From contig JAIQGG010000002.1 in the NCBI GenBank assembly GCA_020072785.1, positions 620,001-684,000 of the forward strand: a stretch of DNA of 64,000 nt, written 5' to 3'. This DNA comes from Terriglobia bacterium (GTDB taxonomy: Bacteria > Acidobacteriota > Terriglobia > Acidiferrales > UBA7541). Position 1 is the first letter of the stretch. Each line of letters starts with the position of its first letter. The notes beneath the pieces were generated by a model. That model did not search any database, was not told the DNA's origin, and saw only the letters and a list, made by a program, of their open reading frames with translations. Below, in pieces: positions 54,209 through 57,828 of this stretch. The position numbers were made by a program, and so were the translations under genes.

Positions 54209-54511
54209 CTATTTCAAAAGGGAAGGAATGTTTCGGGCCCCGTGAAGAATCCGGATGATTTGCAGCGGCTTTGTCTCTGGGTCGTACACGATCCAGTAAC
54301 TCCGGTAGGGCTGCACCAGCCAGAAGCGCAAGGGCAAAGCGGTCAAGTCCGTGCGCGCATGACCAGCCAGCGGAATCTCGGCCAGAAACGCGCAGGCGGA
54401 ATAAATCGCCTCTTCAACGCGGCCGGCTGCGTCAGCGGAATCTTCGGCGATGTAACTCCAAATGTCGAATAGATCTTCTGCAGCTTGGGGGGTGAATTGG
54501 CAGGCGCTCAT
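54209..54511 (-). CDS. parE: RelE/ParE-family toxin
   Basis: A 100-residue protein of the RelE/ParE toxin superfamily: CQFTPQAAEDLFDIWSYIAEDS at the start, a middle region GHARTDL, and the C-terminal strand pair YRSYWIVYDPETKPLQIIRILHGARNI. ParE toxins poison DNA gyrase while RelE toxins cut mRNA on the ribosome; the WSYIAEDS and ILHGARN segments favour ParE. The ATG at 54511 overlaps the antitoxin stop by four bases, the standard coupled arrangement with the antitoxin first. The pair lies between 71-bp direct repeats. Confidence 0.85.
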   Translation of the reverse strand: MSACQFTPQAAEDLFDIWSYIAEDSADAAGRVEEAIYSACAFLAEIPLAGHARTDLTALPLRFWLVQPYRSYWIVYDPETKPLQIIRILHGARNIPSLLK

Positions 54512-54786
54512 GCCTGGCGCTTTTCAGCGAGCCAGGCGCGTTTCCTCTTCTCCAGTGTGGCTCGAACCTGGTCGGAATCGAGCAACTCCCCGCGCTGCGC
54601 GGCGGCATAGCCTTGCTCGATTTTTGCCGCGATCTCCGTTCTATGCTCGGCCAGCCAGGTTTCTTGCTCGTGGAGCAGGGAAACGGCGTGCTCCACGAAT
54701 TCATCCACGGATTGGTACGGCCCGCGCTGCACGTCCTGCTTGATCAGTTCTTCCAGCTCCGGCCGCAGATGAATCTTCATGCCCAT
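54508..54786 (-). CDS. parD: ParD-like antitoxin
   Basis: A 92-residue (or 90, if starting at the second ATG, 54780) protein. The N-terminal half (MKIHLRPELEELIKQDVQRG, then YQSVDEFVEHAVSLL) resembles the ribbon-helix-helix fold of ParD/CopG antitoxins, which binds DNA and represses the operon. The C-terminal half (EQGYAAAQRGELLDSDQVRATLEKRKRAW) is the usual flexible toxin-wrapping helix, including the RGELLD motif seen in many ParD-type proteins. Only 23 bases separate the start from the right direct repeat, so the promoter must lie at or within that repeat. Confidence 0.83.
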   Translation of the reverse strand: MGMKIHLRPELEELIKQDVQRGPYQSVDEFVEHAVSLLHEQETWLAEHRTEIAAKIEQGYAAAQRGELLDSDQVRATLEKRKRAWLAEKRQA

Positions 54787-54949: not shown

Positions 54950-55058
54950 GTCATTTCGAACGAAGCAGGCCAACGCTTTCTTTCCCCTTCGCTCCTGCGA
55001 TCGAAGATTCCGGTCCGGCCGGAAAGGGTTGGCCTGCGCAGTGAGAAATCTCTCTTCG
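54950..55058. repeat. Dispersed repeat interrupted by a palindromic insert
   Basis: GTCATTTCGAACGAAGC (54950-54966) and GTGAGAAATCTCTCTTCG (55041-55058) are the two halves of the repeat seen intact at 46837-46869. Between them is a 69-base imperfect palindrome (54967-55035) closed by AGGCCAAC and GTTGGCCT, with GATCGAAGATTCCGGTCCGG inside, followed by GCGCA. The interior matches part of the element at 36767-36838. Confidence 0.65.
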
Positions 55059-55114
55059 TTTTTGCCTCTCTTCGCATCTGAAGAACTCCCGTCTCCGTGC
55101 CACAATCCGCCCCC

Positions 55115-55225
55115 ATGGAGCGCACCTCCCACGTCTACCTCATGGCCAGCAAATCAGAACAATTGAAAAGACTTTGCCCAGAAAGGATGCTCGCCATAAA
55201 TCTTCATTACAGCTCCACCTTCTAA
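55115..55225 (+). pseudogene. Probable stub of a GIY-YIG endonuclease gene
   Basis: A 36-codon frame starts MERTSHVYLMASKS, which looks like the first strand of GIY-YIG domain proteins (typically HVYIMASxxxxLYIGVT). After the fourteenth codon, at about 55157, the sequence turns AT-rich, the LYIGVT strand never appears and the frame ends at 55223-55225. The simplest reading is that the AT-rich island starting here replaced or displaced the rest of the gene. No GIY-YIG remainder is visible after the island. The stub is short, so the family call is moderate. Confidence 0.5.
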
Positions 55226-55330
55226 ACTGTGATAACATGTCCACTAATGGTCGTATTTGTTCATAACGTAATCGAGAGCTATTGAAAATGCGAAAGAGTC
55301 CACCAACGAAACAGCCTCAGGTCTAGTTGG

Positions 55331-55374
55331 TATGATCAACAGCGGTTCTGTCCTTTAAAGACAGTTATGTCTGT
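55331..55374 (+). promoter_or_regulatory. -10 box and repeated CTGT/ACAG half-sites upstream of the phosphorylase-like gene
   Basis: TATGAT at 55331-55336 is a 5/6 -10 box; the -35 region is weak. Just downstream CTGTC (55348-55352) and GACAG (55360-55364) form an inverted repeat around CTTTAAA, and the same ACAG pairs again with CTGT at 55371-55374. Overlapping symmetric half-sites in this position suggest a repressor operator. Confidence 0.35.
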
Positions 55375-55433
55375 TGTCAGGCTCTTGGGAATTTTGCAAG
55401 GCCGCAAGAAGAAGACCGGGTCTTTGCCAAACG

Positions 55434-56552
55434 ATGGAAATCTCGACATTACTGAGTGCCATTAAGCCCAAGAATCGTACAGACCAATATGTAATCCTCT
55501 CAGCAATGTTCGTTCTGAATGCACATAGATCTCCAGTGACCGCAAAAGAGATATCCCACTTACTTAATTTACATCTACGAACGAAGGCGCCTGATAATGT
55601 GCCTTCCAGTCTCCGTGCGTACACGGCTTACGCAAGCCCAACGGACCAAGGCCCTCGTCTGCGATGGACTCTAACAGATAAGGGAATCGAACATCTTCGA
55701 TCATTAAGTGGGCTTAGTCTCTCCAGAACATTGGACGCCGAAAGTTTTAGGTCAGACATCGGCATAATCTGCGCTCTAGAATTTCCGGAGCTCGCAGCAG
55801 TGCTTAAAGCATTCGGTGGCAAAAGTGCCTGGAAAGAAGTCGGCGACACTCGCTACACACACGTCTATCGTGAAGGTAGTTTGACTACCGCGGAAGGTAC
55901 AACTCTGCGAATAGTAGCAACCACTTCCACGTCAATGGGGCTCACCGCAGCTGCAATCGCGACGACTCAACTTGTCCTCCAGTTTCGTCCGCGGCTGGTT
56001 GCTATGATTGGGATAGCTGCCGGAACACGGTCTGGTGGTAAGCAGTTCGGCGACATCCTGGTCGCAGACCCGAGCGTTGACTACAACTCTGGAAAAGTTG
56101 CTCTCCAGAATGGAATTAGGGAATTTCAGCCAGATCCCTATCCAATTGGGCTTAATCCTCGACTTCGCAGTGTCCTGCAAAAGTACCGCAATGCAAATCA
56201 AGTATTCGAAGGAATACGTGGTCGATGGCACGGTGCCAGACCAGCGGAACCTAATCGTCTTCATTTAGGTCCTGTTGGCGCAGCTGACCAGGTTATTGAC
56301 GATGCGGGGCGCATACTCGAGATTCAAAAGAACTGGAGAAAACTGATCGGTGTAGAGATGGAAACATACGGGGTGTACCGTGCGGTCCACGAGTCACCTG
56401 AACCAAAACCACGGGTCGTATCATTCAAGGCGGTATGCGATTTTGCGGCAGAAAAATCAGATTCGTGGCAGGAATACGCCGCCTTTATGGCTGCAGAGTT
56501 TGCAAGCGAGTTTTTCAGACAAGAATGGGCCGCCTTATGGCCCACAAATTGA
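55434..56552 (+). CDS. Winged-helix plus nucleoside-phosphorylase-superfamily protein
   Basis: A 372-residue two-domain protein. Residues about 15-92 look like a winged helix (VILSAMFVLNAHRSPVTAKEI, later RLRWTLTDKGIEHLRSL). Residues 108-365 are a PNP/MTA-nucleosidase fold: DIGIICALEFPEL, VAMIGIAAGTRSGG, FGDILVADPSVDYNSGKV, VEMETYGVY with Glu310, and VCDFAAEKSD with Asp336, matching the catalytic Glu and Asp of MTAN-type enzymes. Phosphorylase-fold domains joined to regulatory domains occur in predicted defence systems, where they may consume nucleotides. I chose ATG 55434; a TTG at 55374 would add 20 residues. It is AT-richer than the surrounding genome and is followed after 17 bases by its partner gene. 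Confidence 0.75.
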   Translation: MEISTLLSAIKPKNRTDQYVILSAMFVLNAHRSPVTAKEISHLLNLHLRTKAPDNVPSSLRAYTAYASPTDQGPRLRWTLTDKGIEHLRSLSGLSLSRTLDAESFRSDIGIICALEFPELAAVLKAFGGKSAWKEVGDTRYTHVYREGSLTTAEGTTLRIVATTSTSMGLTAAAIATTQLVLQFRPRLVAMIGIAAGTRSGGKQFGDILVADPSVDYNSGKVALQNGIREFQPDPYPIGLNPRLRSVLQKYRNANQVFEGIRGRWHGARPAEPNRLHLGPVGAADQVIDDAGRILEIQKNWRKLIGVEMETYGVYRAVHESPEPKPRVVSFKAVCDFAAEKSDSWQEYAAFMAAEFASEFFRQEWAALWPTN

Positions 56553-56569
56553 AATGGCGGAGGGCTTAG

Positions 56570-57208
56570 ATGAACAGCAAAAAACAACTGACAAAAAAGA
56601 ATCCAGAGATCGCCGCAATTGGAATTGTGTACGGAGCAGTTGAGAAACTAACTCACGAGGAAGCCGCCCGAGTCCTGAGCTACGTCTGGGACAAACTGAA
56701 TCTTAAATCGGCACCCGGTACTGGAAAACTGGAGAAGGACATTGAGGATACATTTGAACCACTACCCAGCGAGAAATCGTCGGAAAGTTCGAAGGTTGAG
56801 GAAGGCGGACTCGAGGGTATCAGTCCTGTAGCAAGGAAATGGATGACCCGAAATGGTCTGAAGGCTGAAACGCTTTCTACGATCTTCAGTCTTGGAGGTG
56901 ATGAGATCGACTTGATTGCTAAAGAGATTCCTGGAAAAAGCAAAAGGGAGAGAATGCATTCGGTTCTACTTTTGAAAGGAATTGCAGCCTACCTTGGAAG
57001 TGGTGCAGCTCGGTTCACCCATGAACAGCTCAAGGAGGCATGTTTACACTATAAAGCCTTTGACTCGGCCAATTTTGCCACCTACTTAAAAGACTTCTCG
57101 GCAGAGGTGACGGGAGACAAGAGCACCGCATATGTGCTCAGTGCCCGCGGTTTGTCAAGCGCAACAGACATTGTGAAAAACATGCTTGCGTCCAAACACG
57201 CGAGTTGA
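56570..57208 (+). CDS. Partner protein of unknown function with C-terminal winged-helix-like domain
   Basis: A 212-residue protein with GGAGGG eight bases before its ATG. Residues 12-45 are helical (EIAAIGIVYGAVEKLTHEEAA), 46-85 are a charged low-complexity linker, and 128-205 have the layout of a winged helix: a first helix, ARFTHEQLKEACLHY, a wing, then TAYVLSARGLSSATDIVKNM. This C-terminal layout resembles the N-terminal domain of the upstream phosphorylase-like protein (wing, then a [YW]xLTxxG-like strand and a last helix). I do not know a named family. It shares the AT-richer composition of its partner, and the two are almost certainly one operon. Confidence 0.7.
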   Translation: MNSKKQLTKKNPEIAAIGIVYGAVEKLTHEEAARVLSYVWDKLNLKSAPGTGKLEKDIEDTFEPLPSEKSSESSKVEEGGLEGISPVARKWMTRNGLKAETLSTIFSLGGDEIDLIAKEIPGKSKRERMHSVLLLKGIAAYLGSGAARFTHEQLKEACLHYKAFDSANFATYLKDFSAEVTGDKSTAYVLSARGLSSATDIVKNMLASKHAS

Positions 57209-57293
57209 GTAGACGGCCTTACCTTCGAATGCTTTTCTTTTCCGGCGCCAGACCTTCTTCTCTTCCTCTACCAGGCTTTTTCCTCTCGATTTT

Positions 57294-57320
57294 GTAGAGG
57301 CCGGGCTTTAGCCCGGCCTC
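57294..57320. repeat. GTAG/TTTA hairpin repeat after the AT-rich two-gene unit
   Basis: GTAGAGGCCGGGC-TTTA-GCCCGGCCTC: a perfect ten-base-pair stem (57297-57306, 57311-57320) with the TTTA loop and leading GTAG shared with 51796-51824. CTGTTTTC follows, so it may terminate the upstream transcript. The rest of the 620-base gap to 57829 holds further repeats (57397-57545) and no gene. Confidence 0.6.
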
Positions 57321-57396: not shown

Positions 57397-57430
57397 CATT
57401 CGAACGTACTATCACCCACCATTCGAAACT
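57397..57430 (+). repeat. 34-bp direct repeat, left copy
   Basis: CATTCGAACGTACTATCACC plus CACCATTCGAAACT; it recurs at 57511-57545 with one inserted base. Each copy contains ATTCGAA twice. The two copies enclose an 80-base segment carrying the 57431-57479 hairpin and dispersed repeat. Confidence 0.75.
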
Positions 57431-57479
57431 GACTATCCGACAAGGATAGTCATCCTGAGCGAAGCGAAGGATCTCAACG
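57431..57479. repeat. Hairpin joined to an uninterrupted copy of the CATCCTGAGCG repeat
   Basis: GACTATCC-GACAA-GGATAGTC (57431-57451) is a perfect eight-base-pair hairpin. It runs directly into GTCATCCTGAGCGAAGCGAA followed by GGATCTCAACG (57449-57479). The latter is the uninterrupted form of the outer sequence found around the insert at 36767-36838. Confidence 0.65.
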
Positions 57480-57510
57480 GCAGATGGACGCCAGCCCGTC
57501 GAACCGAGAT

Positions 57511-57545
57511 CATTCGAACGTACTATCACCCACTCATTCGAAACT
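57511..57545 (+). repeat. 34-bp direct repeat, right copy
   Basis: Same as 57397-57430 with an extra T before the last CATTCGAAACT. It is followed by an AT-rich stretch (57546-57580) that may contain a promoter, though no gene starts soon after. Confidence 0.75.
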
Positions 57546-57828
57546 AGTACCACACAGTAATATATTGACGAAGTATAAATACCGTGCTACCATGCCCCGT
57601 GACGCTTCCACTTCACCCCTGCGAACCCGCAAATGGTCGCCCGCTCCCCTCCTTACCTCATTATCTCTGTACCTCCTTACTTCCATTTATCTCCTGTATT
57701 TCCCATAGCTTACAAACTCTTTGCGCCCACGGCCCCGCAACAACTCCTTTGCAATCAAGCACTCCCGCACTCTTTACCATCACACGGGGGGTGGGGGTGC
57801 CCCCCTGCCCCTGTCATCGAGGATCAAA

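Follow-up and report, generated by a model that had tools for sequence, protein, structure and literature searches.

A horizontally spread gene pair encoding a DtcC-related nucleosidase and an unnamed winged-helix partner as a candidate phage defence system

Two neighbouring bacterial genes, here called A and B, probably represent a new, smaller form of a known suicide-type phage defence, given that they combine a Detocs-type enzyme with a different control domain and a constant, unnamed partner. We read them, with a probability of roughly 0.6, as a mobile abortive-infection system of two genes, where B would control A, a putative ATP nucleosidase. The pair lies in a 64,000-nt stretch of DNA (the window) from the 3.73-Mb genome of a soil bacterium of the Acidobacteriota. 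An earlier note on this DNA had seen in it a stress or phage-defence pair; the conservation of the unit and the immune-effector lineage of its enzyme support that reading, but the specific adaptor domain that the two proteins were thought to share is not supported. In Detocs, the ATP-cleaving effector DtcC acts during phage attack, under the control of a sensor and a small response regulator that work through its receiver domain.

Results

Genes A and B run in tandem on the plus strand and are, as first described, 17 nt apart (2-24 nt in homologues), with A ending at 56552 and B starting at 56570. The locus has the following features.

55434..56552, plus strand: gene A, an open reading frame of 372 aa; winged helix and PNP-superfamily nucleosidase, putative effector
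55473..55712, plus strand: winged-helix domain of A, residues ~14-93 (model; MarR- and B-type profile matches)
55749..56549, plus strand: nucleosidase domain of A, residues 106-372 (MTAN structures, DtcC tree, active-site alignment)
56361..56363, plus strand: codon of catalytic Glu310 (E174 of E. coli MTAN), invariant
56439..56441, plus strand: codon of catalytic Asp336 (D197 of E. coli MTAN), invariant
56570..57208, plus strand: gene B, an open reading frame of 212 aa; putative sensor or regulator
56603..56695, plus strand: two-helix hairpin of B, residues 12-42 (hhalign with other B-like proteins)
56918..57205, plus strand: winged helix of B, residues 117-212 (MarR/PadR-type structure matches; hhalign)
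57297..57320, plus strand: terminator-like hairpin of 10 pairs (9 G-C) downstream of B (pattern scan)

We took ATG 55434 as the start of gene A and rejected an upstream TTG at 55374, because the homologues align from the ATG on; start and length are both kept in eight homologues. The hairpin downstream of B is one of four terminator-like sites found by the pattern scan (3.0 expected), has by far the longest stem and is the probable end of the A-B unit.

The DNA is indeed less GC-rich than its surroundings, at 48.6% G+C in 55157-57230 versus 62.2% across the window, whose lowest-G+C 2-kb stretch begins at 55100. GC3 is 0.45-0.49 in A and B versus 0.82 in the aldehyde dehydrogenase gene, which flanks the pair together with genes for a trypsin-like protease, a permease and, upstream of A on the minus strand, the toxin-antitoxin pair already noticed, ParD/ParE (54209-54786). 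PADLOC models for RT-Protease match the neighbouring protease, an assignment that we rejected since the trypsin-like domain alone accounts for the matches, and an empty-site comparison through the same gene returned only paralogues of at most 49% identity. A 28-nt inverted repeat of REP-like look (79% complementary, 41-nt spacer) lies between ParDE and gene A at 54953-55049, and a 23-nt repeat, CATTCGAACGTACTATCACCCAC, occurs just downstream of the pair at 57397-57557 in two exact copies and one diverged copy. A retron-like conserved RNA partner was rejected, as Rfam gave no match in the window and the DNA upstream of A-B is not conserved among loci.

Scanning a genome collection with gene A gave eight loci outside the window, four in Acidobacteriota, two in Nitrospira and two in Bacteroidota, with A proteins 63-85% identical. 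A homologue of B follows directly on the same strand in all eight, and the partner gene, whose loss beside A would have counted against the original reading, is thus conserved. No flanking gene matched across loci; A and B are the sole genes that they have in common and, therefore, the unit is exactly A plus B. The two have co-evolved: their pairwise distances correlate (r 0.70), a value reached in 1 of 5000 permutations. Both are under purifying selection, as seen against the copy on JAIQES010000021.1, with dN 0.09 and dS 0.84 for gene A (dN/dS ~0.11) and dN 0.19 and dS 0.70 for gene B (dN/dS ~0.27).

The A protein of the window is 77-78% identical to a Nitrospira copy, 66% to Bacteroidota copies and 63% to another Acidobacteriota copy. 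That it stands nearer to Nitrospira than to a member of its own phylum implies horizontal transfer, by which A-B would have spread across phyla as a two-gene unit. Among 151 genomes (the genome holding the window and its relatives), three have a match to B: the genome itself and one relative carry the pair, the latter counted as one genome with the JAIQES010000021.1 copy, and another relative has a distant form of B without A. No A-B pair was found in viral contigs, and B had no match in plasmid sequences even at E 10. The only hit in a phage record was remote and of PNP type, on an unannotated entry of 3 kb, and not a phage copy of the pair.

Co-occurrence with defence genes, proposed earlier as a check, is clear at just one of the nine A-B loci. 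In Chryseosolibacter (locus L014) the pair has a DUF4062 gene on one side and an AbiJ_NTD4 gene on the other (L014:3812-4855 and L014:6951-7796). Other loci, the window included, lie among housekeeping genes and, hence, a role in defence rests mainly on the lineage of the enzyme and its mode of spread.

Residues 106-372 of A match PF01048 (E 2.5e-13) and are modelled as an MTAN-like fold, with Z ~20 against MTA/SAH nucleosidase structures and with some loops of the domain below pLDDT 50. E119, E310 and D336 correspond to E12, E174 and D197 of E. coli MTAN and are invariant in nine homologues, which confirms the two catalytic residues, Glu310 and Asp336, that had been picked out from the single sequence. 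The earlier assignment as a nucleoside phosphorylase was right as to the superfamily fold, but the word phosphorylase is probably wrong: A has the position equivalent to nucleosidase E12, which the true phosphorylase DeoD lacks, and is therefore more likely to be a hydrolase than a phosphorylase in the strict sense.

The best database match of A is the PADLOC family PDC-M60C (E 1.4e-66), in the enzyme half only (profile positions 144-400). In comparison operons from plasmid sequences, the three genes match PDC-M60A, B and C respectively, with receiver domains in B and C, and from this operon composition we infer that PDC-M60 equals Detocs. In a tree of 26 enzyme domains, whose comparison sequences were chosen through similarity to A itself, the nine A proteins fall into one clade with 12 DtcC proteins (support 99/100), inside or beside DtcC. 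A CBASS SAVED-PNP protein, two large PNP-fused proteins, a 414-aa PNP protein and E. coli MTAN lie outside this clade. The enzyme domain of A is 30-36% identical to the main DtcC group and 21% to MTAN. The motif (A/F)(D/N)PxxDxxSGK is common to A and DtcC and absent in the CBASS-type, other PNP-fused and MTAN enzymes compared. For the nucleoside- or NAD-consuming effector proposed at the outset, the enzyme lineage suggests that the substrate is more probably ATP than NAD. A 2254-aa protein of a different Acidobacteriota genome (L066:5415-12179), probably a large NLR-like or repeat protein, carries an N-terminal PNP domain (PDC-M60C profile positions 144-399, E 5e-36).

In front of the enzyme, residues ~14-93 of A are modelled in the DSSP order helix-helix-helix-strand-strand-helix (pLDDT mostly 80-93). 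Residues 117-212 of B follow the same order and match many winged-helix structures of the MarR/PadR type (best Z 7.9 over 85 residues, rmsd 3.7). At the level of the fold, the idea of two similarly laid-out winged helices, N-terminal in A and C-terminal in B, is therefore correct. The region in A has no match in Pfam, residues 1-105 have none in PADLOC, and no other protein among 396 genomes of the phylum carries a winged helix of this type. Solved structures include no sequence relative of B and yield only a chance match at E 1 for the winged helix of A; a library of viral protein structures gave no meaningful match for B.

A profile match links the winged helices of A and B at E 0.0047, and at E 1.7e-4 with a deeper profile. 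In hhalign, A scores 27.8 against B-type winged helices, compared with 17.7 for the best of 150 column shuffles. However, A scores 26.9 (E 1.9e-4) against a control profile built from 24 MarR domains, much as against B, and the resemblance between A and B is therefore that of the fold only. Sequence comparison supports neither a specific adaptor domain shared by the two proteins nor the proposal that such a domain couples them.

None of Pfam, NCBIfam, PADLOC and PHROGs has a family that matches gene B. The protein consists of a two-helix hairpin (residues 12-42), a disordered and hardly conserved linker (48-79), a short conserved element (82-116) and the winged helix (117-212). Distant relatives occur in other Acidobacteriota. 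By hhalign, the hairpin recurs in proteins from L027, L028, L029 and L031 (E 4e-11 to 2e-10), and the winged part belongs to the same family as proteins from L024/L026 (E 2e-14) and L025/L031 (E 1e-40). Several of these lie in gene groups of their own.

L026:4856-6155, L027:4793-6059 and L031:4850-6885: gene pairs of a B-like protein and an RNxRxxxH protein
L028:3004-5268 and L029:2915-5190: three-gene operon of a hairpin and winged-helix protein (B-like N terminus), a ParA/AAA_31 ATPase and a RelA_SpoT domain protein

In the gene pairs the B-like protein directly precedes a member of a family whose proteins, 247-259 aa long, share a conserved RNxRxxxH motif and end in a winged helix. They match one another at E 1e-41 to 1e-12, and no Pfam family covers them; judged by eye, the family is HEPN-like. 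The three-gene operon may be a further toxin-like system that uses a B-type partner, and in L025 the B-like protein adjoins an unnamed 271-aa protein. From these small numbers, B-like proteins look like a partner used with various toxic enzymes.

Compared with known systems, A-B is closest to Detocs at the effector end. The nucleosidase domain of A lies in the DtcC clade, with common motifs and an intact active site, and is fused to an N-terminal regulatory domain, as in DtcC. In contrast to DtcC, A has no receiver domain (PDC-M60C positions 1-143 are unmatched and Response_reg gives no match) and carries a winged helix in its place; the unit has B instead of the DtcB response regulator and the ~1160-aa DtcA sensor, and two genes instead of three. 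A search that recognises true Detocs operons found no PDC-M60A or B among the neighbours of A-B. Because receiver, DtcB and DtcA were all tested for and are absent, A-B is not a Detocs system, but at the effector end the two may well work alike.

PNP-superfamily effector domains are also found in CBASS (Cap17), pAgo, DRT8 and NLR-like systems, and degradation of (d)ATP has been reported for such effectors (PMC10952713). Unlike A, those compared here (one SAVED-PNP and two large PNP-fused proteins) fall on separate branches of the tree. A-B further differs from CBASS in having no cyclase or SAVED domain; no CD-NTase gene occurs among the window neighbours of A, nor does any gene besides A and B recur at the eight loci. 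DUF4062 proteins, the family next to the Chryseosolibacter pair, are reported in a 2026 preprint (PMC13174449) to be NADases that act against phage and bind the phage portal through a winged auxiliary domain, an earlier case of phage sensing by a winged fold. By its description in that work, the DUF4062 NADase Swarozyc resembles A in being a nucleotide-destroying enzyme under a winged-fold domain, but it is a single gene with a TIR-like fold and NAD as substrate. The EACC1 two-gene systems (PMC7159879) set a constant small partner beside variable effectors, as seems so for B-like proteins; yet EACC1 lies in the membrane and is paired with caspases, and its domains are unrelated to those of A-B. 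A named system of the composition of A-B was found neither in PADLOC-DB 2.0, Pfam and NCBIfam nor in the open-access literature searched, in agreement with the earlier note.

Discussion

In the reading that we prefer, A would be the effector, most likely cutting the N-glycosidic bond of ATP or dATP, so that adenine is released, the energy pool is drained and phage multiplication is blocked. The enzyme would be kept off until infection, with its winged helix replacing the receiver domain of DtcC. B may sense a phage product or phage DNA, or may block A until sensing occurs. Infection would accordingly be registered either by B or, through B, by the winged helix of A.

An unlikely alternative is a stress module of the toxin-antitoxin type with no dedicated phage trigger, in which A is a nucleotide-depleting toxin and B both its antitoxin and an autorepressor. 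The genes are co-directional and closely spaced, A is a probable toxic enzyme, B combines small size with a disordered linker and a fold of the DNA-binding type, and ParDE adjoins the pair. However, an effector that comes first, a partner that comes second and winged helices in both proteins are unlike the usual type II layout. The middle and winged parts of B (56-90%) are also almost as conserved as the enzyme of A (70-88%), and the enzyme lineage is one of infection-triggered effectors.

Less probable still is the same architecture with another substrate: as a nucleosidase triggered by infection or stress, A would then cleave NAD, a modified nucleotide or a nucleotide that serves as a signal. 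The A clade sits on a long branch (2.2), which, together with an identity to DtcC of just 30-36%, means that substrate specificity may have shifted. The A family also has a specific segment, GIREFQPDPYPIGLNPRLRSVL, most positions of which are invariant, and a role in generating signals through base release has been suggested for PNP domains (PMC7159879). The presence of the DtcC-specific motifs in A and the (d)ATP degradation by published PNP effectors argue against this alternative.

The MarR/PadR-type folds in both proteins would also suit a ligand-sensing pair of transcription regulators, with winged helices that bind DNA and a PNP fold that merely binds a nucleotide. We consider this improbable, given that all three catalytic residues are invariant in the nine homologues, that the upstream DNA differs between loci and that no common target gene stands beside the pair. 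A housekeeping MTA/SAH nucleosidase or nucleoside salvage enzyme, which the earlier note had named as a possible refutation, would fit the PNP/MTAN fold and catalytic residues but is very improbable, because A stays far below the curated MTAN equivalog cut-offs (51.3 bits versus 169 for NF004079; 32.5 versus 73.8 for TIGR01704), the genome has further PNP-family genes, and A is patchy, horizontally spread and low in G+C, with an extra winged helix and a fixed partner.

A broader and more tentative possibility concerns the B-like proteins as a whole. They might be a general, unnamed class of sensors or adaptors that arm a different toxic enzyme in each operon (an ATP nucleosidase, the RNxRxxxH family, or a RelA/SpoT-type enzyme with a ParA-like ATPase), A-B being one branch of an undescribed modular immune family.

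If the abortive-infection reading is true, the ATP-destroying effector of Detocs has moved from two-component control to a far simpler two-gene switch. Given that A-B is small, complete and 63-85% identical across three phyla, it is directly testable via cloning. B would give an unannotated partner family that can be used to find more systems and, should B turn out to be the sensor, those of its relatives that adjoin other toxin-like genes would be immediate candidates.
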